37,562 nt of DNA, from positions 1 to 37,562 of the IMG/VR virus record IMGVR_UViG_3300044948_000463; one strand, 5' to 3'. Made by a program: the position numbers and the translations under genes. This stretch comes from a virus. This document shows positions 13,689-31,242 of this stretch, one piece after another. Under the pieces are notes generated by a model. The model was given only the letters and a program-made list of their open reading frames with translations. It was not told the DNA's origin and did no database searches. Within the stretch, counting starts at the first letter, position 1; every line of letters starts with the position of its first letter.

Positions 13689-14884
13689 GCATGTACAACG
13701 ATTACGATTTTGATGTCATCGCAGTTGATCCGTCTGGATTCCTGAGTTACCAGTCTGGTAAGGCATCATCATCGCTGAAGTTTGTTATGTCCTGTGAGCA
13801 TGCCGAGGAGTTCGCACTACGGCAGATGGGCAAATTCTGGACTTCCGCTGCGCCAAGTCCTGTGCTTCCTGTGCCGTTTCCATTCGACAACCTCACTGAT
13901 CAGCCGCGAGGCTATGGGCGAATGAACCTTGTCGCAACAGGGTTTTCAATTGAGCCAGTGTCTGCCGCGTGCTTCGGCAACAATCTTAGCGCCCCGAGGG
14001 CTCCTGTTGGAGATCCTGCAGACATCGATACGATGGCTTTGTACTTCACTCCCTCTCCGGAACCAGAAGAGGAGCAGCCAGACAACTCCTGCTGCGAATG
14101 TATGGTGACTCTGACATACGAGGAGAATCCGTGTGACTGCTGCGGGTACGACCAGAATTCTTTGAGCCCAACGTATCGGCAGTGGGTCGCTAATGATGAG
14201 ATCTTGCCGGGGACGTGCATTTCCGTTGAGAGAAATCCAGCCTACGAAATGCTGACGCTTCCGAACGGAAATCTAATCTGGAAAGATCTTCCATCATCGA
14301 CAGAAGACGAGCAGATCGCAAGGCAGTTGAAATCTGATTCGTATGCGTACAAGATTATTCCAAAGGCTGACATCATCGTCAGTTGGCACAACGTCCCGGT
14401 CAGGAATATTTGTGCAATTGAAAACCACCTGAGAAACTTCAGGGGAACAGTAAACGACTTGGCATGGGGCGACGTGCTTCAGTGCGATGCGGCTCCAGTT
14501 GCTCCAACGGCATGCGGGTGTGGCCAGTACGAGCCAGAGACGATCATGTTCATCGACTATCAGGAAGACAGATCAAGGAGGACCGATGCGTTTGGCGGAA
14601 ACTTCCTGAACTCTGGCGACCCTGCAAATAACATGAATACGACGACTCTCAAGCTGATCTTCAAGCAGAAGCGAATTGAGATACCCAATTCAGAGACATA
14701 CTCTGACAGCAACGGCTGTCCTGACGATAATGACGAAGCCTATGGATGGAACCATCTGTTCTTCGACAGAAACACTGAAGACGACTCTCCTGGCGAATGG
14801 ATGCGTGTCGCCGTTGACAACGCAACAGAAGATCCGCTCTTTCCGCTAAAATCATTCTCTGACATATTCTACCCAGTCCTATGA
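13685..14884 (+). CDS. Tail-tip protein, cysteine-rich (distal-tail position)
   Basis: This 399-residue protein follows the tape measure with an ATGA overlap, the slot of distal tail or baseplate hub proteins. The N-terminal part is beta-like. A central cysteine cluster, NSCCECMVTLTYEENPCDCC at about residues 134-153, plus ACGCG near 278, could form disulfides or a metal site. A proline/glutamate stretch (TPSPEPEEEQPD) precedes the cluster. No family motif is recognised, and the role is inferred from position only. Confidence 0.55.
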   Translation: MSMYNDYDFDVIAVDPSGFLSYQSGKASSSLKFVMSCEHAEEFALRQMGKFWTSAAPSPVLPVPFPFDNLTDQPRGYGRMNLVATGFSIEPVSAACFGNNLSAPRAPVGDPADIDTMALYFTPSPEPEEEQPDNSCCECMVTLTYEENPCDCCGYDQNSLSPTYRQWVANDEILPGTCISVERNPAYEMLTLPNGNLIWKDLPSSTEDEQIARQLKSDSYAYKIIPKADIIVSWHNVPVRNICAIENHLRNFRGTVNDLAWGDVLQCDAAPVAPTACGCGQYEPETIMFIDYQEDRSRRTDAFGGNFLNSGDPANNMNTTTLKLIFKQKRIEIPNSETYSDSNGCPDDNDEAYGWNHLFFDRNTEDDSPGEWMRVAVDNATEDPLFPLKSFSDIFYPVL

Positions 14885-16602
14885 CAACACCAAAGCGATG
14901 GACTCCCGGAGATCCGATCACCGCTGAACGCCTAAACGCGACGATCAGCGAATCTGTTCGTCCGCGCCGAGACATTTCACTTGGTAATGGGTCATCGCTG
15001 GTCAATGAAACTCTTGGGAACCAGTCGGCCACTGAGAGGCACCAGCAGATAAAACTGGTTGTCGCTGTGACGGACTTCGCGATTTCCGGGACTCCGACAG
15101 ACATCGCAGCATGGCCCGACGACATTCCGTCCGGACTGGTTAAAGAAGTCCGACTGAACCGCAGGTCAGGAACTCATGGGCAAGACGACTCTAATAAATC
15201 CTTCCGCGCCTACGACGCTGTCGGCGGATTAAATGGAGGGATTTGCCAGACGGGGACAACCACAAACCCTGCCAGCGAGTCATCGACAACGGCAGCCAGC
15301 AAGTTGGCATGTGACGTTTTTTATGTCTTGTTCAATACAGCATCAAAGAGATGGGAAGTCATTGAGGCTGGCGGGCGCACCCATGAAATCTGGTTCACTA
15401 TTGACGAGGTGCAGAGAGAACAGGAATGCGAAACAACCCTGATTGTCCGGCCAACTTACTACACAGGGGGATGCTCTACAGGGATTCCCGGCGAGGATCA
15501 GGACGGGCTGATCACTGTCACAGACCCATTCAGAACTCTGGAACAATACTCGGAAGAGTTTCTACTTGCTGCGACAGGACGTGCAACGTGGATGTATCCA
15601 CGCACTGGCAACGGTTCCAGTAGTTCATCCGCTGAATCAACGAGCAGTTCTTCAGGTGGTGAGTGCGATCCAGTCTGGATCGTGGACATTATCTACGAAG
15701 CTGTAATATGTGCTTCGTCGAGTTCATCATCGAGTAGTTCGTCATCCAGCAGCAGTTCGTCCTCAAGTAGTTCGTCCTCAAGTAGTTCTGCATCCAGTTC
15801 TGCATCCAGTTCTGCATCCAGTTCTGCATCCAGTTCTGCATCCAGTTCTGCATCCAGTTCTGCATCCAGTTCTGCATCCAGTTCTGCGTCCAGTTCTGCG
15901 TCAAGTTCTGCGTCAAGTTCTGCGTCAAGTTCTGCGTCAAGTTCTGCGTCAAGTTCTGCGTCTGCTTCTGCGTCTGCGTCTGCATCCGGAAGCAGTTCGT
16001 CATCCGGAAGCAGTTCTGCATCCAGTAGCAGTTCGTCATCCAGCAGTTCAGCATCCAGCAGTTCAGCATCCAGCAGTTCAGCATCTAGCAGTTCAGAATC
16101 TGATTCTGTGTCTGGTTCGGTGTCTGGTTCGGTGTCTGGTTCGGCGTCTGGTTCGGCGTCTGGTTCGGCGTCCAGCAGTAGTTCGGCGTCCAGTAGCAGT
16201 TCGTCATCCAGCAGTTCAGCATCCAGCAGTTCAGCATCCAGCAGTTCAGCATCCAGCAGTTCAGCATCCAGCAGTTCAGCATCCAGCAGTTCAGCATCCA
16301 GCAGTTCAGGATCTGATTCGGTGTCTGATTCGGTGTCTGGTTCGGTGTCTGGTTCGGTGTCTAGTTCGGTGTCTGGTTCGGAGTCCAGCAGTAGTTCGGC
16401 ATCCAGCAGTAGTTCGGCATCCAGTTCGGCATCCGCATCCAGTTCGGCATCCGCATCCAGTTCGGCGTCTTCCGAATCCGGATCATCTGACTCATCGGCA
16501 AGTTGCAATCTTGTTTTGATAGACGTAACTTTCGACTCCGTGACGTGTTCGCTGGTAAAGACGTTCTGCAACCTGACTACAGGCGAAATAACAACAGGGT
16601 AG
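14881..16602 (+). CDS. Serine-rich repeat tail protein (probable tail tip or fibre)
   Basis: This 573-residue protein has three parts. Residues 1-240 are a globular domain starting TPKRWTPGDPITAERLNA, a pattern seen at the N-terminus of tail-fibre or baseplate appendage proteins. Residues about 245-540 are almost only Ser with Ala, Gly, Val, Asp and Glu, built from SASS, SSSSA and SGSV repeats and interrupted by a short folded insert (GECDPVWIVDIIYEAVICA, 260-278). The last 35 residues are a folded end with cysteines (CNLVLIDVTFDSVTC) that resembles the insert, so the serine tract links two copies of a small Cys domain. The start overlaps the previous stop. The tract could be a flexible stalk and is a natural target for O-glycosylation by the enzymes encoded downstream. 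Confidence 0.7.
   Translation: MTTPKRWTPGDPITAERLNATISESVRPRRDISLGNGSSLVNETLGNQSATERHQQIKLVVAVTDFAISGTPTDIAAWPDDIPSGLVKEVRLNRRSGTHGQDDSNKSFRAYDAVGGLNGGICQTGTTTNPASESSTTAASKLACDVFYVLFNTASKRWEVIEAGGRTHEIWFTIDEVQREQECETTLIVRPTYYTGGCSTGIPGEDQDGLITVTDPFRTLEQYSEEFLLAATGRATWMYPRTGNGSSSSSAESTSSSSGGECDPVWIVDIIYEAVICASSSSSSSSSSSSSSSSSSSSSSSSSASSSASSSASSSASSSASSSASSSASSSASSSASSSASSSASSSASSSASSSASSSASASASASASGSSSSSGSSSASSSSSSSSSSASSSSASSSSASSSSESDSVSGSVSGSVSGSASGSASGSASSSSSASSSSSSSSSSASSSSASSSSASSSSASSSSASSSSASSSSGSDSVSDSVSGSVSGSVSSSVSGSESSSSSASSSSSASSSASASSSASASSSASSESGSSDSSASCNLVLIDVTFDSVTCSLVKTFCNLTTGEITTG
15715..16500 (+). repeat. Tandem repeat tract encoding the serine-rich stalk
   Basis: In-frame tandem repeats span about 785 bases. 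From about 15785 to 15967 a 12-base unit (TCTGCATCCAGT, later with GCG and TCA variants) encodes SASS about 14 times. From 16035 and again from 16205 a 15-base unit (TCCAGCAGTTCAGCA) encodes SSSSA. Between them and after 16310 a 12-base unit (TCTGGTTCGGTG) encodes SGSV. The SSSSA and SGSV blocks occur twice in the same order, so the tract grew by duplication and should be prone to length change. Confidence 0.92.
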
Positions 16603-17097: not shown

Positions 17098-17249
17098 GAC
17101 GCCTTCTGCTTGTTCTGTTGATTCCAATTGTGTCGCAATTTGGAGTCCACTATTTCCGAATATTCGCTAAGGCAATTGGCGAGGCATCGGTCAACCAGTG
17201 GAAACAAGTGATGGTCGAAAACATTGAGAAGGAATTCCCTCGTGAGTGA
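17094..17249 (+). CDS. Small protein with N-terminal hydrophobic segment
   Basis: This 51-residue protein starts in an ATGA overlap with the previous gene and overlaps the next start (GTG 17242). RRLLLVLLIPIVSQFGVHYF is a basic-hydrophobic segment typical of a signal anchor or uncleaved signal; the remaining 30 residues are amphipathic and charged (WKQVMVENIEKEF). It could sit in the inner membrane. A holin or spanin role is possible but unsupported. Confidence 0.55.
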   Translation: MRRLLLVLLIPIVSQFGVHYFRIFAKAIGEASVNQWKQVMVENIEKEFPRE

Positions 17250-19878
17250 TTGCCAGTGCGAACTGACCGGATTTTGTAAGGTGCGAAACATCGCAATGAA
17301 GCGAACGCATCAAATGATTTGCCGGGAGAATAAGCATCGCATGGACGCAATTCTGGCTGGCGAGCACACTAAAAGTCACGACGAAAACAACCAAGAAAAA
17401 GTGAAAGGTGTCGGAACAGTTCTGTCGTCAATCTTCAAAACTATTGGGATTGAATCGTCGGAAACTTGTAATTGCAGGCGATATGCAGTGGAGATGGATC
17501 GACGAGGGACGAAGTGGTGTCTTGAAAACATAGACACAATCGTAGGATGGCTGCAAGAAGAAGCTGTCGCAAGAAAACTGGTGTTCTTTCGTGCTGGTGT
17601 AAAGATTGCCTTGTATTCATTACTTAAAAGCTATTCGATATTTGAAAAGGTTCGTCCGGACAGCGGCGAGGACAGCAGGGTCTTCAGCAGGCGAGACGAC
17701 GAATGGGCAGTCGCAGTCACGGCAGCACCGCGAGCCGGAGAGTACACTCTTGCCAAATGCCTGCAGTCAATAATTGCGGCTGGCTGGAGCGACCCTATTG
17801 TCTTCGCAGAGCCTGGCATCGAGGTGCCTGAAGGAATAACCACATTCCACAACCCAGAACGTCGAGGCTGCTTTCACAACTGGCTTCACAGTGCAAAATG
17901 GGCACTTGAGAATACGCAAGCTGAAATGATCCTGTGCGTTCAGGACGACTCTCTGTTCCACCCGGACAGCAGGCAGTTCACCGAGGATCACTGCTTGTGG
18001 CCCAGTGATGACACTGGGATTGTCAGTCTCTACACTGCCTCGCACTACCAAAGCGAAAAAGGGGCGATGAAAGCAGTTGGGATTAACGAAGTCTACACGG
18101 GCGTATGGTGGGGCACTTGTGCTGTCGTTTGGAGGAGATCAGCACTTGAGGCAGTGGTCAGCCATGAAATAACAAAGAACTGGCTGGGTATTTCACCACG
18201 GAAACAGGCTGATGAAACCCATAACCCTAAACTGCGAGCAAAAAGGGTCGCTGATTATTTTGAAGGAAGAAAAAAGCAGCCGCACCTAATCAACAACAGT
18301 GACTACGTCGCTGGGCATGTTCTCAACCTGCTTGGCTTCAGGAAGTTCTTTGTAGACCCATCCCCAGTATCACACATTGCCAAAGTCTCAACAATAAATC
18401 ACGGAGGGAATAGCGGCAAGAGGAATTGCGCACGATGTGCAGACCATAAAAAACCACTCATGTCTCAGGTTGGGACAGTTATCAACAGGATTGAAAAGGA
18501 AGAAGACATTATGGCATCAGGAAGAGGACCAAGGCCAGCAGGAGCGTCGCTAATCATAACTCCGGGACCATCAGTTGGCGCTGTGCCGAAACATACGTTT
18601 CTGATAAGGACTTCGTTTCGAGATCCAATAGTGTCGGCCTACAGATGGAACGTCACTCAGCATACGTTGCTCAAGTCGCTCGCATCTCAAAACAACAAAG
18701 ACTTTGAGATTCAACTCATCTGTGGAGATGATGACCCGCTGCGTGAAGTGAAGTTAGCGGCATTCAGTGAAGTTGCCCCGACAACAATTGCCCCGAAGGA
18801 CTGGTACAACCAGCCACACGACGGGGTGTGGAGAAGAACAACCCGAGTCGATGACGACGACATGCTGTCGATCCGGTTCGTAGAGCTTCTGGCAGAGCAG
18901 CCGTTTGACGGAACCGAATGTCTATTCAACTTCCCGATCGGATGCCTATGGTCAGAGGGGGTGTCACATCGCTGGAATTACCCAGTGAATCAGTTCATTA
19001 CCATTCAGACGAACACGCGACTGACTCCGTATCATTTTGCGCATCAATACTATCAGCAACTCCTGCCTGTTGTTGTCGTGACCGAGGAGATCCACTGGAT
19101 GTGGATCAGGCACCACGGGGTACTCAGTGGGGCAACACCGGGAGCAATTCCGAAGCGGTTTACGCATGGCGTGATACAGACAAACGCAAGTCTGTTTCCG
19201 TACGACTTTGCCACCATCAAGACTGCTCTAGTCCATGATCAGTCGGCGGTCGTGAAGGTTTTGGAGTTGCGGGCGAAGTACGGACGAGTTGACAAAGATG
19301 TACTCAACATCTGCGCAAACGCGACGACTGATGAGTTAACAACACTTGCAGCGACTTACGGAACTGACAAAGGTGTCACTGGGACTACAGACAAAAACCA
19401 TCAGTACACGCTGGTCTACGATCGCCTGTTTAAGGGGATGCGAGACCAGGTCGAACACGTCCTTGAATTCGGCGTGGGCACCGGCGCAAGTCTTCGAATG
19501 TGGGCAGACTATTTCCCTAAAGCGATGATTCACGGGCTGGACGTTAAGCGAAGAAGTGTGCCACATCCTCGGATCGTAACACACAGGTTTAACTCCATCA
19601 CCCCGCTTGACACACACTTCAAGTTCTCATTGGTGATTGACGACGCGAGTCACATATCGAGTCACCAAAGAGTCATGTTCGAACTGCACAGCAAACATGT
19701 CAAGCCAGGAGGGTTCTATATAATTGAAGACCTTCATGCCTGCAGACTGGGTGGCAAGTATTTAAACGAATCTCCTTCAATGCTTGAAACATGCCGTCTG
19801 TGGGTGTCTACTCCGCCATTCGGATGGACGTGCCAGCTTTACGGCGACCAGTTGTGCATACTGCAGAAAGATGAATAG
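17242..19878 (+). CDS. Fused Cys-motif, glycosyltransferase, glycosyltransferase and methyltransferase protein
   Basis: This 878-residue protein seems to carry five units. (1) Residues 4-27 hold a Cys-rich zinc-like motif (CQCELTGFC ... C). (2) Residues 55-125 carry CNCRRYAVEMDRRGTKWC followed by IDTIVGWLQEEA. (3) At about 155-385 lies a GT-A-like glycosyltransferase with LCVQDDSLF as acidic motif. (4) At about 450-640 a second glycosyltransferase has ICGDDDP and TRVDDDDM. (5) At about 695-875 a class I SAM methyltransferase has motif I VLEFGVGTGASLRMW and SLVIDDASH, like sugar O-methyltransferases. GTG 17242 has AAGGA upstream and overlaps the small gene before it. It would add sugars and methylate them in the cytoplasm. 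The target is unknown. Confidence 0.8.
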   Translation: MSDCQCELTGFCKVRNIAMKRTHQMICRENKHRMDAILAGEHTKSHDENNQEKVKGVGTVLSSIFKTIGIESSETCNCRRYAVEMDRRGTKWCLENIDTIVGWLQEEAVARKLVFFRAGVKIALYSLLKSYSIFEKVRPDSGEDSRVFSRRDDEWAVAVTAAPRAGEYTLAKCLQSIIAAGWSDPIVFAEPGIEVPEGITTFHNPERRGCFHNWLHSAKWALENTQAEMILCVQDDSLFHPDSRQFTEDHCLWPSDDTGIVSLYTASHYQSEKGAMKAVGINEVYTGVWWGTCAVVWRRSALEAVVSHEITKNWLGISPRKQADETHNPKLRAKRVADYFEGRKKQPHLINNSDYVAGHVLNLLGFRKFFVDPSPVSHIAKVSTINHGGNSGKRNCARCADHKKPLMSQVGTVINRIEKEEDIMASGRGPRPAGASLIITPGPSVGAVPKHTFLIRTSFRDPIVSAYRWNVTQHTLLKSLASQNNKDFEIQLICGDDDPLREVKLAAFSEVAPTTIAPKDWYNQPHDGVWRRTTRVDDDDMLSIRFVELLAEQPFDGTECLFNFPIGCLWSEGVSHRWNYPVNQFITIQTNTRLTPYHFAHQYYQQLLPVVVVTEEIHWMWIRHHGVLSGATPGAIPKRFTHGVIQTNASLFPYDFATIKTALVHDQSAVVKVLELRAKYGRVDKDVLNICANATTDELTTLAATYGTDKGVTGTTDKNHQYTLVYDRLFKGMRDQVEHVLEFGVGTGASLRMWADYFPKAMIHGLDVKRRSVPHPRIVTHRFNSITPLDTHFKFSLVIDDASHISSHQRVMFELHSKHVKPGGFYIIEDLHACRLGGKYLNESPSMLETCRLWVSTPPFGWTCQLYGDQLCILQKDE

Positions 19879-20645
19879 TGGAAGACATAAACGCAGTTGC
19901 TGCCATGAAGACGTACAGCAGCGACGATAACGCTTCTGATCGCGAAGACATTCACAGGGCAATCAACACATACCAGAATACATGTGGCTTGCCGCTGCAT
20001 GTGTTCGACGATAGTTCATGCCCGACGTATGTCGAGTATTTGATGGGATTCAAGGGCGTTTTTCTTCACAAACATGGGGAGAATGTCGGGCCAACTGAGA
20101 ACAGCAATCGCTGTATGAGTCTGTTCAAACAGTATCACGAGATCGATGCGTTAATCCTGCTGGATGACGATATCGAGTTCCTGAAGCCTGGCTGGTCAGA
20201 CCTATACCTCAATGCACTCTCAGACGAAGTTCAGCTACTGTCATTCAATGACAAAGAAATCACGCAGTCACCCGGTGTCCCGCACGGCAACTACTCACTT
20301 TCGCAATGGAGTTGTGGAGTTTGCGTGACATTGACGCGGCAATGCTGGATGAAAGCTGGAATGTATGGACCATTCCCGGAAAAGTATGGATGGTGCCATA
20401 TAGAGTACAACTGGCGATGTGCGTTACTGGGGCTCATCCCAATGGATGGGTTCTATGACGTACCTGGAATCCATAACTACATTAAGATTTCCTCTTACTT
20501 AGGAAGCGAAGAAAAGCTGCGTCAAATCGCAGTCAACTGGTCATCAGAAACAGTTCAGTTGACTGTAGATAAATACTTCGCAGGAGATCAGGAGAGATGG
20601 GATAAATTAAAGAAAATCAATCAACCACTGCGGCCAGTTAGGTAG
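19878..20645 (+). CDS. Glycosyltransferase, GT-A fold, type 2-like
   Basis: This 255-residue protein starts at GTG 19878, which overlaps the TAG of the fusion gene by one base. The acidic motif ALILLDDDIEF (Asp96-98) is the likely nucleotide-sugar/metal site. It is followed by a typical GT-A middle with GVCVTLTRQCWMKAG and GWCHIEYNWRCALLG, where the acceptor-site acidic residue lies. The N-terminal strand-helix pattern (REDIHRAINTYQNTC) fits. No membrane segment is seen. The donor and acceptor sugars cannot be told. Confidence 0.75.
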   Translation: MEDINAVAAMKTYSSDDNASDREDIHRAINTYQNTCGLPLHVFDDSSCPTYVEYLMGFKGVFLHKHGENVGPTENSNRCMSLFKQYHEIDALILLDDDIEFLKPGWSDLYLNALSDEVQLLSFNDKEITQSPGVPHGNYSLSQWSCGVCVTLTRQCWMKAGMYGPFPEKYGWCHIEYNWRCALLGLIPMDGFYDVPGIHNYIKISSYLGSEEKLRQIAVNWSSETVQLTVDKYFAGDQERWDKLKKINQPLRPVR

Positions 20646-20777
20646 CTACATCAGAATCACCTCGCACGATTGCAGGACCGCAGAGAGGGACAGGCAGGCT
20701 GGCATCAACGGGTTATCAGAGCAAGTCCAATCATCTCTAAGCAAATACACTGCGATGAGGCTGGAGGCAGGCATAGC
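20646..20777 (+). other. Gap with a protein-like frame lacking a normal start
   Basis: No full gene with ATG/GTG/TTG fits this 132-base gap. One frame, open from 20610, reads like protein (SYIRITSHDCRTAERD, then INGLSEQVQSSLSKYTAMRL) and ends in TGA at 20779-20781, overlapping the next ATG as ATGA. It would need a rare start codon such as ATC, or be the shifted end of the upstream glycosyltransferase. GGAGG at 20763-20767 serves the next gene. Confidence 0.3.
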
Positions 20778-21191
20778 ATGATCAAGGTCTACACGGGCGG
20801 AACTTTCGATTTGTTTCATGCGGGGCATGTGCGATTCCTTCGCCGGTGCGCAGATATCGGGTACGTGACGGTTTCAGTAAACACAGATGACTTTGTATTG
20901 CGGTATAAAGGGAAAGCCCCTGTCATCAAACTTGAGGACCGCATTGCAGTCCTTGACGCATGCCGGTGGGTTTCATGCGTAGTGGTGAATGAAGGTGACG
21001 AAGATTCAAAAGTCGCAATTGAAAAGATTTCCCCGGATGTAATCGCGATTGGTTCTGACTGGCAGGCAAAAGACTACTGCCGACAGATGGGGTTCACATC
21101 AGAATGGCTGGAAGCCAGAAACATTGCACTGGTATACCTGCCCTATACGGATGGAATTTCATCAACCTTGATTAAAGAGAGAATGCAATGA
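20778..21191 (+). CDS. Cytidylyltransferase, TagD/GCT-like
   Basis: This 137-residue protein is a small nucleotidyltransferase of the glycerol-3-phosphate cytidylyltransferase type. YTGGTFDLFHAGHVRFL (residues 5-21) contains the HxGH motif (HAGH), and ISSTLIKERM near the end matches the ISTTxIKxR signature. IGSDWQAKD lies in the middle. Such enzymes join CTP to a phosphorylated alcohol to make CDP-glycerol or similar donors. ATG 20778 has GGAGG upstream; the longer TTG frame at 20670 is rejected. It sits inside the glycosyltransferase island, so it may supply an activated building block for the glycan. Confidence 0.88.
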   Translation: MIKVYTGGTFDLFHAGHVRFLRRCADIGYVTVSVNTDDFVLRYKGKAPVIKLEDRIAVLDACRWVSCVVVNEGDEDSKVAIEKISPDVIAIGSDWQAKDYCRQMGFTSEWLEARNIALVYLPYTDGISSTLIKERMQ

Positions 21192-21850
21192 TTCACATTC
21201 TGATGCCGACCAGAAACAAGCCCGAAGAAATCACCAGAGTGTGCAGCGAGTTAAGCGGATCGGAGTGTCGACTGTGGCTTTACGTGGCAGATGACGACCC
21301 TAAACTCGGCGAATACCAATCATTGCGTTTACCGACTGCAGCAACAGTCGTCTTCGGAACACCACTGGGGTTCAGTCGCGGAGTGAATCATCTTGCGAGC
21401 ATCGCAGCAAAACAGCCAAACGCGACTATGCTCATGCGTGCCGAGGATGACTTTTATTTCAAGCCGGGGTGGGATAAAAAATACAAAGAAGCCATGTGGA
21501 AAGACGGCGTCGGAATGGTATGGTGTAATTATGTGATGAAGGGGCCGGAAGCAGAGCCACACACAGCAGCGATAGGACTTGGGTGGTATCGTGCGCTCGG
21601 ATGGTTTTCGTTGCCTGGCGTTCAACACCACTACTGCGATAACGTGTTGCGAGAAATTGCTGAGGCCGCTGGTCGCAGCAGATACATCCCAGAGCCGATG
21701 ATTGAGCATCGGCACAACCTCAAAGATCCAAGAAAGTGTGGGCATGGCCAGCAAATCTATGATGCAGACAAAAAAAGGTATGATCAGTGGCGGAGTGGCG
21801 AAAAAGCAGACGACTGCAGACGAATTTTCGAAGCTCGACATGGAGTCTAG
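21188..21850 (+). CDS. Glycosyltransferase, GT-A fold
   Basis: This 220-residue protein starts as a typical GT2-like enzyme: MIHILMPTRNKPEEITRVC, then LWLYVADDDP and, at about residue 85, MLMRAEDDFYFKPGWDKKY with the acidic metal-binding motif. GIGLGWY-like and histidine-rich segments (GVQHHYCDN) follow. The ATG overlaps the previous stop as ATGA. It would act on a nucleotide sugar in the cytoplasm. The specific sugar is unknown. Confidence 0.75.
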   Translation: MIHILMPTRNKPEEITRVCSELSGSECRLWLYVADDDPKLGEYQSLRLPTAATVVFGTPLGFSRGVNHLASIAAKQPNATMLMRAEDDFYFKPGWDKKYKEAMWKDGVGMVWCNYVMKGPEAEPHTAAIGLGWYRALGWFSLPGVQHHYCDNVLREIAEAAGRSRYIPEPMIEHRHNLKDPRKCGHGQQIYDADKKRYDQWRSGEKADDCRRIFEARHGV

Positions 21851-24245: not shown

Positions 24246-24933
24246 AGAGAAGCGATTCTGGAAGGATGAGATCTCTTTTTACGTCCGATGGTTCCACGGA
24301 AGAATCAAGGAACTGTACGGCATTCCCTGTCCGAAGCAGCATGAGAAGATTCAGCGTTTCTCTTCGGAAGAACTGAATGCGATCGAGACGTGGATCAATG
24401 CCGACAAATGGCGATACTGCAAGAGACTGCATGTTGAGCCAACGTACTTCTCGGGCAAGAAAGTTCTGGAAGTTGGCTCTGGTCCGCTGGGGTTGAGTCG
24501 GTTCTTTGCTGGCGCGGAAGTGCATTATCTCGATCCACTTCATGCATGGTACTGGCAGTGCGGATACCGCAAGGTTGGATATTCAATCGAGGCGAGAATA
24601 GAAGACTGCATGCACCATCGATATGACGCTGTAATTTCAGTGAATGCAATCGATCATGTCGATCAGTTTGAAGACGCAATCGATGCCTGTGAAATGATGT
24701 GCGACATGGACGGCGAAATCCGCATGGACATCCACTACCACGCACCAACAGTCACAGAACCACACGTCCTGAATGACGAGATCGTCGCTGCGGCATTTAA
24801 GAGATTCGACATGAAGAAGATAGCGGAGAATCCGTCGCGAGTCTTCTATCCACGCGGTACGCATCCAGACTCCGATCGATTCGCTGTGTGGAGCAATCGC
24901 GACTACGTTTATGACGCAGTGAGGTCGCTGTGA
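24226..24933 (+). CDS. Class I SAM-dependent methyltransferase
   Basis: This 235-residue protein starts at ATG 24226 with AGGGAGA upstream and overlaps the end of the previous gene by 20 bases; the longer TTG frame at 24184 is rejected. Motif I is KVLEVGSGPLGLSRFF, followed by VHYLDPLH (acidic loop), DAVISVNAIDHVDQFEDAI (motif of the fourth strand) and IRMDIHYHAPT. The N-terminal 75 residues are charged and helical (EEKRFWKDEISFYVRWFHGR). It probably methylates a sugar or a small acceptor made by the island. Confidence 0.78.
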   Translation: MTTKYDEEKRFWKDEISFYVRWFHGRIKELYGIPCPKQHEKIQRFSSEELNAIETWINADKWRYCKRLHVEPTYFSGKKVLEVGSGPLGLSRFFAGAEVHYLDPLHAWYWQCGYRKVGYSIEARIEDCMHHRYDAVISVNAIDHVDQFEDAIDACEMMCDMDGEIRMDIHYHAPTVTEPHVLNDEIVAAAFKRFDMKKIAENPSRVFYPRGTHPDSDRFAVWSNRDYVYDAVRSL

Positions 24934-25850
24934 ACCGAGAACAAGCACTTGCAAAGATGGTCGCCCCTGTCAAGAAGCGAAAGACTGCCTGGCTGAAAGG
25001 AATCATCCAGATCCACGTCACCCGCGCCTGTGATTTGGCATGCTCCAATTGCACGCAAGGATCTCAGTTCGGAGGCAAGGCCTCGTTCATTACCGAAGAA
25101 AACTTCGAGGCGGCTGTCATCAGTCTGAAGGACTATTTCGGCGTTGTGGGGATCTTCGGCGGGAATGCCGCTCTTGCTCCAAACTTCGAAGCACTCTGCC
25201 TAATCCTTGAAAAGCATATCCCGAAGAATCGTCGAGGACTCTGGTGCAACAATCCACGAGGACACGGCAAGCTGATGCGACGGGTGTTTAACCCGAAAGT
25301 TTCGAACCTGAATGTGCATTTGGTTAAGGACGCCTACGACGAATTTAAGCGTGACTGGCCAGAGTCAGAACCGTTCGGACTTCACCACGACTCACGTCAT
25401 TCTCCCGTCTACGGATCACTGGAGAAACTGGTTCCGGACGAGTCGCAGCGATGGGATCTCATCGGCAACTGTGCGATCAACCAGAACTGGTCGGCGATGA
25501 TCTGTCAGTTCCGTGGCGAACTTCGCGGATACTTCTGCGAGATTGCTGGCGGGCAGGCGATGCTGAACCAAGAGAATCCGGAATACCCTGATACCGGAGT
25601 GAGAATCGAGGCAGGATGGTGGAAGAAGGCGATGCCGGAATACGGCGCACAAGTCGACTTTCATTGCCATCGATGTCTCGTTCCGTTGAACGGTCACGGG
25701 GCGCTGGCTCAGGCCGACAAGAAGACACAGGTCACGGAAGAGTATTCTCACCTGAAGTTAAAGTCTGGAGGAACATTCCAGATCGTCGACAGTGTCAATG
25801 ACATTCTTCCCGAAGAAAATCGCATCGTGACGGAGTACCTTGGAACATGA
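24930..25850 (+). CDS. Radical SAM protein
   Basis: This 306-residue protein starts at GTG 24930, overlapping the methyltransferase stop. VTRACDLACSNCTQG (Cys34, Cys38, Cys41) is the CX3CX2C cluster-binding motif. VVGIFGGNAALAP corresponds to the glycine-rich strand that positions SAM. Further cysteines (GNCAINQNW, MICQF, GYFCEIAGGQA, FHCHRCL) in the last 150 residues could hold auxiliary iron-sulfur clusters as in SPASM or Twitch proteins. It would carry out a radical reaction on a sugar, peptide or lipid. Its place among glycosyltransferases suggests sugar modification or peptide decoration, not proven here. Confidence 0.85.
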   Translation: MNREQALAKMVAPVKKRKTAWLKGIIQIHVTRACDLACSNCTQGSQFGGKASFITEENFEAAVISLKDYFGVVGIFGGNAALAPNFEALCLILEKHIPKNRRGLWCNNPRGHGKLMRRVFNPKVSNLNVHLVKDAYDEFKRDWPESEPFGLHHDSRHSPVYGSLEKLVPDESQRWDLIGNCAINQNWSAMICQFRGELRGYFCEIAGGQAMLNQENPEYPDTGVRIEAGWWKKAMPEYGAQVDFHCHRCLVPLNGHGALAQADKKTQVTEEYSHLKLKSGGTFQIVDSVNDILPEENRIVTEYLGT

Positions 25851-26389
25851 GAATACAAACTCGTGACTGCTTGGGTGATGTTGCGAACGCTTTGGGCCTT
25901 AGAACTGCTGTCGAGGTAGGGACTCATCAGGCAGTATTTGCCCGCTCATTCATGAAGAGATTCAGGGGATCGATCACGCTTGTCGATCCTTGGCTCGACT
26001 ACGAGCAGGGCAAGGATGCGTTTTATCCTTCTGTCGACCCAACAAGCAAGACTCGATCGAAGGACATGCAGATCGCCGTCGGGATCATGACGGAATTCTA
26101 CGGACGGGTGACTTTTATGCAGACGACGGGTGAGCAGGCGTCTCATTCGTTTGCCGATTCATCAGTCGGCATTGTCTACATCGACGCACTTCACGAGTAT
26201 CAAGACGTGATCAGCGATATCAACACATGGTTTCCGAAAGTTGCCAGTGGAGGGATCATTGCAGGTCACGACTTTAGTTACATGCTTCCCGGAGTTGTTG
26301 CTGCTGTGGAAGAATTCAGGATCAAGAGCGGACTTCAGGTCAACCTGACTTGCGACGATATGCCGTCATGGTGGGCGATCAAGAGATAG
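25847..26389 (+). CDS. SAM-dependent methyltransferase, class I
   Basis: This 180-residue protein has motif I as TAVEVGTHQAVFARSF, then TLVDPWLDYEQG, FADSSVGIVYIDALHEYQDV and GGIIAGHDFSYMLPGV, the pattern of Methyltransf_24-type enzymes with a metal-binding Asp/His set (DALHEY, GHDF). The start overlaps the radical SAM stop as ATGA. It probably methylates a sugar hydroxyl, and is unlike the C-terminal methyltransferase domain at 17242-19878, which has a different N-terminal part. Confidence 0.8.
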   Translation: MRIQTRDCLGDVANALGLRTAVEVGTHQAVFARSFMKRFRGSITLVDPWLDYEQGKDAFYPSVDPTSKTRSKDMQIAVGIMTEFYGRVTFMQTTGEQASHSFADSSVGIVYIDALHEYQDVISDINTWFPKVASGGIIAGHDFSYMLPGVVAAVEEFRIKSGLQVNLTCDDMPSWWAIKR

Positions 26390-26409
26390 TTCCAAGGAAG
26401 AGGCGTTTT

Positions 26410-27153
26410 ATGACAGCAATCAAGCCCCGAGGCATCACTGTCTGCGTCGACTACGCCGACATCCTCGCACTGACGCTTCCGTACAACCGGGAGTTCTTCA
26501 GCGAGTTCATGGTGGTCACGACGGTCAAGGATCATCAGACAATCCACCTCGCGCAGGAGAACGACTGTCATGTCCATCTCAGCGATGCTTTCTATCGTGG
26601 CGGCGCTGTGTTCAATAAGTTTGCAGCGATGGAAGAAGGGCTTGACGTTTTCGGTCGGCACGACTGGATGTGCATCATTGATGCTGACATCGTCATCCCG
26701 AAGAACAAGCTCGCCTGGGTGCCGAAGGTCGGGAAGATCTACACTCCGCATCGCAGAATTCTCCACCAGATCCCGGCGGAAATCCCGGAACATCGCCTAT
26801 GGCGACAGTCGAAGAGGCCGATGAACAACGAAGAGTTCGCAGGCTACTTCCAGTTGTTCCATGCGAGCGAACCGTTCCTTCAGAAAACTCCGTGGCATGG
26901 GACGGACTGGACGTGGGCCGGTGGCGCTGACTCGTTCTTCCATCAGAAGTGGTCAGAGTCGAATAAGGTTCGGCCACCGTTCGAAGTTCTGCATCTCGGG
27001 CCACCGTTCATCAACTGGTGCGGACGAGTCACTCCGTTCGCTGATGGGACGACACCCGAGAAGGCGATGCTTCGCAACGAGCATAGGATGATGCTGCTGA
27101 AGAATCGGCGGGAGAACAAGCAGGACAAGTACAAGGCGGAGAAACTGAAGTGA
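26410..27153 (+). CDS. Glycosyltransferase-like protein
   Basis: This 247-residue protein starts at ATG 26410 with AGGAAGAGG upstream; the longer frame at 26350 overlaps the previous gene. It reads as a GT-A fold: GITVCVDYADILALTLPYN, FMVVTTVKDHQT, then NKFAAMEEGLDVFG and WMCIIDADIVIP with the DAD acidic motif. The C-terminus is highly basic (RRENKQDKYKAEKLK). GPPFINWCGR closes the acceptor domain. It is likely a transferase of the same glycan pathway. Confidence 0.75.
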   Translation: MTAIKPRGITVCVDYADILALTLPYNREFFSEFMVVTTVKDHQTIHLAQENDCHVHLSDAFYRGGAVFNKFAAMEEGLDVFGRHDWMCIIDADIVIPKNKLAWVPKVGKIYTPHRRILHQIPAEIPEHRLWRQSKRPMNNEEFAGYFQLFHASEPFLQKTPWHGTDWTWAGGADSFFHQKWSESNKVRPPFEVLHLGPPFINWCGRVTPFADGTTPEKAMLRNEHRMMLLKNRRENKQDKYKAEKLK

Positions 27154-27953
27154 GAATCTCCGTCGGAATTCTGTCAGCGCCGAGGCCAGAGCCGACGCTT
27201 CTCAAGTGTTCGAGTGCGATCGCTGAGTCTGGATTCAGCCTGATCCATCACGCGACGGAATCAGAGAGCAGGCATTTTCTGTCGCCGTGTGAGTTTGAGC
27301 GATCGCCGACGGGATCTCTCGGGAACTTCCAGAATTGGCTGCAGACTGCCAGGGATCTGCTCACGATGGACCACGACGCAATCCTGATCGCCGAGGATGA
27401 TGCTTTGTTCTGCCGGGACGTGCATGCACTTCTGCAGCGGGATCTCTGGCCTTCCCGGGACTGTGGTTGCGTCTCGCTGTACTGCCCTGCAATGTCGCAC
27501 TATTCCCAGACATCGTTCGGGCTCGGTAGAACTCGAGTCGTCATGCGGGAACCGCTGTCAAGCAGCAACAATCTGGTCGGCGCGCTCGCTCTTGTATTTC
27601 CGGCTGCTGTTCTGCGAGAACTCGTTTATCACGAATCGATCGGACTCTGGAAGGGATCGCACTCGCAGGCGAGGAATCCCGGAACACCACCTTATGAGCG
27701 AAAGGCGGTCGACACATGGATTGGCAGAACTCTGGTTTCGATGGGTCTGTCGATTTGGAACTATTCGCCGAGCCTCGTTCAGCATTATGTCCCGAATCCA
27801 AAAGCGGCCAATTCTTCGCTTGGGCATGGTTTGGCCAACGGAAACCGCCAGTCGCGGTCGTGGGCTGGAAATTCAAGGCAGAGTGTGCTGGAAATGATTC
27901 CGGCGCGAAGGGAGAGATTTGATGGTGCCGGTGTACCTGAACATTCGGTCTGA
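27150..27953 (+). CDS. Glycosyltransferase, paralogue of the first domain of the fusion enzyme
   Basis: This 267-residue protein starts at GTG 27150 in a 4-base overlap. NFQNWLQTARDLL, AILIAEDDALF, DLWPSRDCGCVSLY and VGALALVFPAAVLREL correspond in order to FHNWLHSAKWALE, ILCVQDDSLF, LWPSDDTGIVSLY and WWGTCAVVWRRSALE in residues 210-302 of the 878-residue fusion protein. VDTWIGRTLVSMG and SPSLVQH further match SDYVAGHVLNLLG and PSPVSHIA. The GT-A fold is inferred from EDD. It appears to be a stand-alone copy of that domain. Confidence 0.78.
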   Translation: MRISVGILSAPRPEPTLLKCSSAIAESGFSLIHHATESESRHFLSPCEFERSPTGSLGNFQNWLQTARDLLTMDHDAILIAEDDALFCRDVHALLQRDLWPSRDCGCVSLYCPAMSHYSQTSFGLGRTRVVMREPLSSSNNLVGALALVFPAAVLRELVYHESIGLWKGSHSQARNPGTPPYERKAVDTWIGRTLVSMGLSIWNYSPSLVQHYVPNPKAANSSLGHGLANGNRQSRSWAGNSRQSVLEMIPARRERFDGAGVPEHSV

Positions 27954-28632
27954 GTATGCGGAGGCGGACAGTTCGCGGTATCGGTTCTCGCTGACCGAGA
28001 ACATTCTGATCCCGAGCCTCAAGAATCAGGTCGCTCGAGGAGCGATCATCTTCCTGGAGCAGTCTCCGATGGATCCGTACTTCAAGCGGCGGGAGAAAGC
28101 CTTTAGGTCAGTCACTGATCGCGTTATTCCGATGCACGAGAAGGAAGGCATAGAATTGCCGGCTAGAGTTGAGGCGACAGTTGGCGACGACGACTTCCTC
28201 GGGCCGGAGTTTGTCCAGAAAATGCGGATGGGGTTTACGCCGGAACGCGGAAACGTCCAGATGTTCATGCCGCATGGGTACATTTTCTTCGAGGGAGCCC
28301 TGCATCCGTGGCGGAACAAAGCGGATTTCATTGAGATCACTCAGTACGGAAACCCGGGTTCGCCGGTCGTTCGGCACGAAGGATTCGACATTGCCAGCAC
28401 TCCGCAGTGGATTTACTGCAGGCATCAGATGAATTTTAACCCGCTTTCGGCTTCAGAAGTAGATGCTCCTGAGATAAAACTGGCTGCGTGGAAGGGTTGG
28501 CATCAAGGAATAGTGGCTCGCTATTGCCAAACCCAAGTCCTCACGGCGACTGCGAATGGGTGTACTTTGCACCCAACAAAAAGCAAGTCGATGATGTACG
28601 CTAAGGGTTCTGCCCGTAGTCGAAGGAAATGA
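27922..28632 (+). CDS. Glycosyltransferase-like, paralogue of the second fusion domain
   Basis: This 236-residue protein shares with residues 452-590 of the fusion enzyme the order R-S/T-start (NIRSEYAEAD versus LIRTSFRDPI), a helix ending IPSLKNQ versus LKSLASQN, RVEATVGDDDFLGPEFV versus TRVDDDDMLSIRFV, and MFMPHGYIFFEGALHPWRN versus LFNFPIGCLWSEGVSHRWN. The DDD is the likely metal site. ATG 27922 follows GGGAGAG and overlaps the previous gene by 32 bases. It lies directly after the paralogue of the first domain, the same order as in the fusion. Confidence 0.75.
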   Translation: MVPVYLNIRSEYAEADSSRYRFSLTENILIPSLKNQVARGAIIFLEQSPMDPYFKRREKAFRSVTDRVIPMHEKEGIELPARVEATVGDDDFLGPEFVQKMRMGFTPERGNVQMFMPHGYIFFEGALHPWRNKADFIEITQYGNPGSPVVRHEGFDIASTPQWIYCRHQMNFNPLSASEVDAPEIKLAAWKGWHQGIVARYCQTQVLTATANGCTLHPTKSKSMMYAKGSARSRRK

Positions 28633-29577: not shown

Positions 29578-30443
29578 GAGAGTCATTTGCAGTCTTGGCT
29601 GCTTTTATGGGCTTGCTCCTCGCTACAGTTCAGGACGAACCCGCAGTTCTGAAGCCTGCTCCCGACAAGATCAGCGAAGCCCCACAGATTATTTTCCCGA
29701 CGATCCCGGTGATCGACGAGAAAGACATCCCTGAAGAAGACCTGCCAGTTCCGGTTCCGCGCCCGAAGCGAGGCCCAGAATTCGTCTCGAAACTGAATGA
29801 AGAGACGTGGCTTGTTATTGAATCACCGGGACCGCTGATGATCTTTGACTTTCCGGAAGGACTGGTCGAGATTGATTCCGACGACGGCGCACGACCGATG
29901 AAAGTCAAAGGGAAGTTCGCCGACGGCACTGGCAAGGTCGAGACACGCACATTCACGAGCAAGCATCTGTACTTCGTTAATGCGGTGAAGTCGGGCCAGA
30001 TGGAAATGCTGATCATCCCAGAGGGAGCGATCAGTAAGACGCAGTCCCAGCGACATAAGATCGTCGTCATGGGGCAAGGTCCGATTCCTCCGCCGGATCC
30101 CGATCCAATACCAGATCCCGATCCTGTACCTGTTCCGACAGGCAATGTGGTCATCGCGATTGTCGAGGACGCGCAGAATAGAAAGCCTGATACGGCGATT
30201 CTTTTGAATGCGATGGCGAGTTGGAATTCCCTGAAAGACGCTGGTAACGACTGGCGTCTTTATGACGTTGCAACCAGCGAGTCAAAAGGGAAGCAGGCAG
30301 TTGAAGATGCGAAGTCTTCCGAGTTGCCGGCGATGATCATTCGCGACAAGGAGACGGATAAGATCCTACGAGTGATTCCGTTGCCGAAAGATTTCGACTC
30401 GCTCAAAAGAATTCTTTCTGAACTGGGGGTGAAAGGTGTCTGA
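29574..30443 (+). CDS. Exported protein with Pro/Asp repeats and thioredoxin-like C-terminus
   Basis: This 289-residue protein starts with a signal peptide (ESFAVLAAFMGLLLATVQ). Residues 25-165 are mixed beta with acidic loops. A repeat PDPDPIPDPDPVPVP at about 170-185 is a rigid linker. The last 100 residues (VVIAIVEDAQNRKPDTAIL, then WRLYDVATSESKGKQAVEDA, and LPAMIIRDKETDKILRVIPL) look like a thioredoxin fold lacking the CxxC. It would act outside the cytoplasm. The role is unknown. It overlaps both neighbours, the upstream gene as ATGA and the peptidase start by 8 bases. Confidence 0.6.
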   Translation: MRESFAVLAAFMGLLLATVQDEPAVLKPAPDKISEAPQIIFPTIPVIDEKDIPEEDLPVPVPRPKRGPEFVSKLNEETWLVIESPGPLMIFDFPEGLVEIDSDDGARPMKVKGKFADGTGKVETRTFTSKHLYFVNAVKSGQMEMLIIPEGAISKTQSQRHKIVVMGQGPIPPPDPDPIPDPDPVPVPTGNVVIAIVEDAQNRKPDTAILLNAMASWNSLKDAGNDWRLYDVATSESKGKQAVEDAKSSELPAMIIRDKETDKILRVIPLPKDFDSLKRILSELGVKGV

Positions 30444-31242
30444 GGAAATCGAACAGATCATTGATGAGACTGGCGAAACACGCCGACTCGGATCTCTGGC
30501 TCCTCAGGAGGGATTCGTATCGGCGTTCAACACGTTTGAGCAGGAACATCCTGTCTGGGACGACGCTGATATCAAACGAGTCGTGACGAACTCAGACAGA
30601 ACTCCGCGCCGAGTCCTGTTTGCAAAAGAGTGGATTCAGAACCAGAAAAGCCACGGATCCTGCAACGGATACGCGGCTTCTGGCGCTTTGGCGAAAGCTC
30701 GCTTCCTGCGAGGGATTCAGGATAAGCTGAAGCTCTCTGGAGCGTTCATCTACTCGCTCATCAACGGTGGGCAGGATAACGGTTCTGCTCTGGAGAGCGG
30801 ACTGAAGGTTATTGGCACTCACGGAGCCCCACCAGAGGCTCTGGTTCCGTGGAACATGATTTACCCCAAGCAGCAGCCATCAAACGCCAAGGCAGAAGCC
30901 CTGAAGCACCGTGGGCTGAAGTGCTACGCTGTACAGACGAAGCAGGGATTCCGAACGGCTCTAGCCGCTGGGTTCCCTGTGATCGTGGCTGTTCAGGCCG
31001 GATCGAAGTTTCAGCGACTGAATGCCCAGGGGATTGCCTCGGCGGATTCAGGCGGCGGCAACCATGCGATCCACTGCGACGACATCCGGATTGTTGGCGG
31101 GCAGGAAGTTTACGACTCCTGCAATTCATGGGACGTGACTTACGGAGACCAAGGGCGAGCATTCCTGACGTGGGATTCGTTTGCCCAGACCTTCGGTCGG
31201 CATACGTTTTACGCCGTCGCGAGTACCGAAGAAAAGGATTAG
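30436..31242 (+). CDS. Papain-like cysteine peptidase (family C1)
   Basis: In this 268-residue protein, QNQKSHGSCNGYAASGA holds Gln70 and Cys76, the oxyanion glutamine and nucleophile at the papain spacing of six. GGGNHAIHCDD supplies His210 and CNSWDVTYGDQGRAFLTWDSF supplies Asn230 in an NSW motif with the typical following GxxG. The complete triad is present. GTG 30436 has AAAGG upstream. No clear signal peptide is visible, and the N-terminal 60 residues are acidic and may be a propeptide. It could be a virion or lysis protease, or act on host proteins. Confidence 0.88.
   Translation: MSEEIEQIIDETGETRRLGSLAPQEGFVSAFNTFEQEHPVWDDADIKRVVTNSDRTPRRVLFAKEWIQNQKSHGSCNGYAASGALAKARFLRGIQDKLKLSGAFIYSLINGGQDNGSALESGLKVIGTHGAPPEALVPWNMIYPKQQPSNAKAEALKHRGLKCYAVQTKQGFRTALAAGFPVIVAVQAGSKFQRLNAQGIASADSGGGNHAIHCDDIRIVGGQEVYDSCNSWDVTYGDQGRAFLTWDSFAQTFGRHTFYAVASTEEKD

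Follow-up and report, generated by a model that had tools for sequence, protein, structure and literature searches.

A viral fusion protein with two glycosyltransferase domains and a sugar-methyltransferase domain, and its possible relation to a serine-rich tail protein

The window and its fused reading frame

Amid the late genes of an uncultured phage lineage, one reading frame encodes several putative glycan-modifying enzymes in a single polypeptide; from which genes was it assembled, and on what does its product act? The window, by which we mean the whole stretch of DNA analysed, is a 37.6-kb virus record in which an HNH gene is followed by terminase, portal, protease, capsid and tail genes, a glycan-enzyme island and further late genes; these structural names were assigned by reading, and the terminase alone is backed by phage matches. 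The island spans 17.2-28.6 kb and is flanked by structural (late) genes. Two other viral contigs, L002 and L005, are near-copies of the locus; the contig behind L005 (55.7 kb, 99.9% identity to the window) adds helicases, a primase-polymerase, a D12 DNA methyltransferase and other genes. A scan for promoters and terminators returned signals at chance level only. The coordinates of the features discussed here are collected in Table 1.

Several neighbouring genes were noted in passing. A radical SAM protein encoded within the island (24930-25850) is conserved in L015 and L031, and its place is taken in L012 and L014 by a different radical-SAM-like protein, recognised by its CxxxCxxC motif. Immediately 5' of 27150 lies a glycosyltransferase-like gene (26350-27153) that is kept by all island relatives and occurs in two copies in L031. 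Farther downstream, in the late region, a papain-family cysteine peptidase gene (30436-31242) precedes a thioredoxin-like gene, an order resembled in L011 and L031.

Table 1. Features of the fusion gene and of the surrounding glycan-enzyme island
Feature	Position	Strand	Remarks
Tail protein, proposed acceptor	14881..16602	+	313-residue Ser-rich tract, residues 237-549
Fusion ORF	17242-19878	+	878 aa; GTG start; plausible AAGGAA-type ribosome site; 0 internal stops
Variable N-terminal leader ("Cys motif"), residues 1-51	17242..17394	+	Unrelated leaders in L003, L004
N-domain, residues 52-145	17395..17676	+	Module G.G..L...GI..C.C...M...G..WC..N..TIVGWL.EEA; 71 viral loci
Domain A, GT-A glycosyltransferase, residues 155-400	17704..18441	+	QDDS metal motif at 234-237; paralog of 27150
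Linker A-B, residues 401-450	18442..18591	+	Little or no match to stand-alone families
Domain B, PF11316 rhamnosyltransferase-like GT-A, residues 451-650	18592..19191	+	DDDD at 537-540; Pfam
Methyltransferase domain, MycE/TylE-type sugar O-methyltransferase, residues 701-878	19342..19875	+	D801/H804/D830
Cassette gene 2, glycosyltransferase-like (phrog_2456)	19878..20645	+	Fusion-bearing relatives only, among those tested
Cassette gene 3, cytidylyltransferase-like (HldE domain / TagD-like)	20670..21191	+	Fusion-bearing relatives only, among those tested
Cassette gene 4, GT2-like	21188..21850	+	Weak PF00535; syntenic in L003, L004; absent from L012-L015
A', stand-alone paralog of domain A	27150..27953	+	Kept in relatives with and without fusion
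B', stand-alone paralog of domain B	27919..28632	+	Clade separate from fusion B

A preliminary description of the window had proposed that this long reading frame encodes one fused protein, and the frame is indeed present and uninterrupted. Metagenomic data from a single contig are prone to joining errors, and the fusion might accordingly be an artefact of assembly or sequencing, or a decaying join of separate genes. The probability of such an artefact is negligible in our view, because the frame is unbroken in four further viral contigs (the near-identical L002 and L005 and the divergent L003 and L004) and is under purifying selection. The L003 and L004 copies share 95-97% identity with the fusion of the window, and the dN/dS ratio against L004 is 0.11 over its whole length. 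Per segment it ranges from 0.04 to 0.23, and among the domains from 0.05 (domain B) to 0.23 (N-domain); all these figures refer to L004, as the L003 copy has too few changes in domains A and B and the methyltransferase domain. Positions 17397-20555 are 98.5% identical to L003, against about 88-91% on both flanks, which suggests that this block was exchanged recently. A 50-codon frame (17098-17249) whose product has a hydrophobic N-terminus extends at its 3' end over the fusion's GTG start codon, and a similar small hydrophobic frame lies 5' of the L003 copy.

Domain composition of the protein

The preliminary description had counted five parts, among them a Cys motif at the N-terminus. Four parts are conserved; in L003 and L004 the first 51 or so residues give way to leaders of 30-60 amino acids that are unrelated to them, and the Cys motif is therefore a changeable leader. 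The part originally named after the letters CNCRRY is a phage module of about 75 amino acids, here called the N-domain. Outside the fusion group, the viral open frames that were examined carry it at the C-terminal end of a separate small late-region protein, usually 90-250 amino acids long, whose N-terminal part varies. No credible match was found for the stand-alone copies tested in Pfam and NCBIfam, for the N-terminus of the fusion in PHROGs, or for the N-domain in the phage records searched. Genes for stand-alone N-domains adjoin tail, baseplate, terminase, nuclease and phosphoesterase genes, among others. They have no steady glycosyltransferase neighbour (one glycosyltransferase family match among 64 downstream proteins), so that a targeting role for this domain is a guess.

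Among the N-domain loci found in metagenome-assembled genomes, that of a Blastopirellula genome (L027) is the exception in that the N-domain precedes a GT25 domain; this second fusion of an N-domain with a glycosyltransferase adjoins a Ser-rich tail protein. The frame concerned (L027:5929-6961), in which a P-loop, sulfotransferase-like domain may also begin, is cut by the contig end. In L076 the N-domain lies 3' of a region that looks glycosyltransferase-like by eye and has no Pfam match. A further N-domain gene, in L078, adjoins a gene (L078:53-5527) whose 1824-aa product includes some 255 residues of almost pure poly-Ser, as well as one for a second Ser-rich protein; no glycosyltransferase was recognised in that locus. 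The metagenome-assembled genomes with N-domain matches belong to Planctomycetes and Verrucomicrobia, a hint that the host may be found in one of these groups; a search of 392 genomes from the phylum of the Blastopirellula genome gave two matches only.

When all proteins of the window were compared with one another, the two best non-self matches were those between domain A and the 27150 product (fusion residues 156-394, 29% identity, BLASTP E=3.7e-10) and between domain B and the 27919/27922 product (residues 455-578, 29%, E=0.004). The latter match reached E=1.6e-6 with phmmer and E=2e-8 in a pairwise BLASTP comparison. Profile-profile alignment gave 99.1% (E=2e-18) for domain A and 92.3% (E=5.6e-7) for domain B. 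Pairwise and profile tests thus agree with the earlier observation that the two domains match 27150 and 27919/27922 in the same order.

In domain A, the DD of the metal motif is invariant in 10 of 10 aligned sequences, as befits a GT-A enzyme. Domain B is matched by PF11316 (E=2.3e-6; 27.7 bits against a cut-off of 23), and the first two Asp residues of its DDD motif are invariant in the alignment, in keeping with a GT-A assignment. Profile searches of PDB sequences with the two domains found nothing useful. AlphaFold models, run per domain, have GT-A-like cores in both cases; as the alignment behind each model includes the paralogs, the fold of the latter is not tested independently by them. 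Foldseek placed the model of domain A with GT13/GT2 enzymes (E down to 6e-7; a core like that of GT13 POMGNT1/GnT-I and SpsA), and that of domain B, with weaker glycosyltransferase matches, near GT2/TarP. Both models deserve moderate confidence: pLDDT is 65 overall for domain A, mostly 71-92 in its N-terminal core, and 58 for domain B.

The proposed methyltransferase domain proved real, with matches to MycE (PDB 3ssm, E=6.7e-19), TylE (8ia9, E=6.4e-15) and phrog_21658 (E=2e-21), and it is the only part of the fusion that was matched in the phage records searched. Of the active-site residues of MycE/TylE-type enzymes, namely Asp275, His278, Asp304 and Tyr208 (PMC9275233), the first three align in 3ssm with the conserved D801, H804 and D830 of the fusion, a numbering that assumes a 20-residue tag in the PDB chain. 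Tyr208 has no counterpart, its loop being missing from the phage domain in the alignment. Hence, we assign the domain to the MycE/TylE homologous superfamily and not to an exact enzyme type; by homology, it is predicted to act like a sugar 2-O-methyltransferase. Together with the similarity of domain B to rhamnosyltransferases, this makes an O-methylated deoxysugar cap the likeliest product.

Descent of the fused domains

How did these domains come together? It had been proposed that two neighbouring genes became fused at one end of the island and stayed separate at the other. In its full form this would mean that the 27150-27922 pair was duplicated and fused and that the joined copy acquired a methyltransferase. 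The identical order of the domains and the significant similarity of both of them to the island genes speak for such an origin, but we consider it very unlikely. Domain B of the fusion scores 62.8 bits against a free B gene in L014 and 38.9 bits against 27919, and it is nearer to a group of two-domain enzymes that carry both B and the methyltransferase than to 27919. These enzymes (402-405 amino acids, domains in the same order) are encoded as separate genes in eight contigs from unrelated phages (L119-L126); in L119-L122 the gene lies directly 3' of a homolog of gene 22001, and the free B gene of L014 likewise follows 22001. In phylogenetic trees, all 27919 orthologs, including those of L031 and L011, group in a single clade to which the fusion does not belong (support 99/98 with a distant outgroup and 100/100 without one). 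With a very distant outgroup included, the formal test did not reject a topology that unites fusion B and 27919 (p=0.12), so that the tree argument rests on the monophyly of B', the score ranking and the shared B-methyltransferase architecture. Moreover, A' and B' lie apart in L011, and the fusion's domain A shares 28-31% identity with A' genes, against 37% between the A' proteins of L011 and the window.

Score ranking, B' clade, two-domain genes and domain A identities together suggest that both glycosyltransferase matches reflect deep paralogy among genes of a common phage pool and not a recent duplication of the pair. Read from gene architecture, domain B belongs together with the methyltransferase as a single unit, and A' and B' represent a pair of longer standing in the island, retained whether or not a relative carries the fusion. 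We conclude from these comparisons that the fusion probably joined an N-domain, a domain A and a pre-existing B-methyltransferase enzyme. An ancient common pair behind both the A-B part of the fusion and 27150-27919 is possible; relatives of neither 27150 nor 27919 were encoded in the phage records searched.

Proposed function and relation to known systems

Two genes upstream of the fusion lies the tail protein gene 14881, and 205 of the 313 residues of its tract are Ser. All six Ser codons are used, and this mixed usage means that the tract is probably kept as protein. At the DNA level it consists of several different tandem repeats, and its length differs by 4-10 residues among the near-identical contigs L002 and L005, which marks it as hypervariable. 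It measures 291-345 residues in all fusion-bearing contigs and 30-40 in five cassette-free relatives (L012, L014, L015, L031 and L011), and cassette genes 19878 and 20670 share the distribution of the long tract. TerL types cut across the cassette: those of L003 (100%), L012 (95%) and L014 (90%) are of the window type, those of L004 and L015 of a 63% type, and the cassette-bearing, long-tract state and the cassette-free state both occur on the two TerL backgrounds. This linkage is suggestive only, since neighbouring genes may move together without a functional tie.

The earlier suggestion that one enzyme performs several consecutive glycan steps is plausible, judging from the multi-domain composition. 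We propose that the fusion is a multifunctional enzyme that builds a methylated O-glycan on the 14881 tail protein, and we regard the chances of this reading as about even. Domain A would add a sugar and domain B the next one, whereupon the methyltransferase domain would cap the chain by O-methylating its last (deoxy)sugar; the activated donor might come from the cassette nucleotidyltransferase (20670), and the most likely acceptor would be the Ser-rich tract. The N-domain may hold the enzyme to the virion or to an assembly partner. Reaction order, sugars, acceptor and N-domain role are all put forward here as inference. The fuller version, in which the N-domain anchors the fused enzymes to the growing tail so that a single polypeptide O-glycosylates and methyl-caps the Ser-rich protein during assembly, seems doubtful to us.

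The tail-glycan reading is weakened on several counts: the tract gene and the cassette are close together and may be co-inherited as a block without function, a long Ser tract stands beside an N-domain in L078 where no glycosyltransferase is recognised, stand-alone N-domain genes seldom adjoin glycosyltransferase genes, and the structural models deserve moderate confidence only. The enzyme might instead act on a polysaccharide or lipid of the host surface, masking receptors or excluding superinfection, since phage glycosyltransferases often change host serotype (PMC12619734) and the island is rich in such enzymes and has a cytidylyltransferase. We find this unlikely; the genes lie within the structural (late) region, the parts scanned revealed neither an integrase nor a membrane flippase, and the hydrophobic frame 5' of the fusion is the sole hint of a membrane. 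Still less do we favour hyperglycosylation of phage DNA by the island enzymes, although viral sets of glycosyltransferases that modify DNA are known (Pyle 2024, as cited in PMC12619734) and A' is weakly matched by phrog_854, a "glucosyltransferase". The scan of non-structural proteins from the 55.7-kb contig (part of its reading frames) found no enzyme of modified-base synthesis and showed a D12 adenine methyltransferase instead, while the methyltransferase and glycosyltransferase domains fit enzymes of sugars and of proteins or polysaccharides.

The proposed tail-modifying enzyme bears comparison with several known systems. MycE and TylE (3ssm, 8ia9; see also ThnM1, PMC9275233) are homologous to its methyltransferase domain (E=7e-19), which keeps their Asp/His/Asp residues; unlike them, the phage domain lacks the Tyr208 loop, is fused to glycosyltransferases and has no tie to antibiotic synthesis. 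The two-domain phage enzymes of L119-L126 share the order of B and methyltransferase but have neither N-domain nor domain A. In mycobacteriophages, virion proteins are glycosylated by phage-encoded glycosyltransferases (Freeman 2023, as reported in PMC12619734); there the glycan is on virion proteins, as is proposed here. In that system the genes are separate and the acceptor is different, and no multi-domain fusion was seen among the matches examined. In a Mycobacterium prophage, a methyltransferase related to that of the fusion adjoins a glycosyltransferase gene. An unrelated phage encodes a 1207-aa protein (L006:7661-11284) with two GT8 domains, a further glycosyltransferase-like part, a methyltransferase and a C-terminal glycosyltransferase-like part; like the fusion, it combines several glycosyltransferases and a methyltransferase within a phage structural region, but it has other glycosyltransferase families and no N-domain. 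Serine-rich repeat glycoproteins are bacterial adhesins with linked glycosyltransferases and accessory secretion; they resemble the window in that a Ser-rich protein, here a candidate acceptor, adjoins a glycosyltransferase cluster.

Virion glycosylation can be put to the test at this locus, whose uncultured phage lineage possibly infects Planctomycetes or Verrucomicrobia: the enzyme is defined, a Ser-rich protein is the candidate acceptor, and related phages that have or lack the cassette form natural pairs for comparison. The locus also reveals a phage domain for which the libraries searched contain no family model, as well as a glycosyltransferase-methyltransferase enzyme that recurs across unrelated phages. 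Set beside the systems above, the fusion, which is well supported as are its parts, is a new version among the already known glycan-modifying islands of phages.
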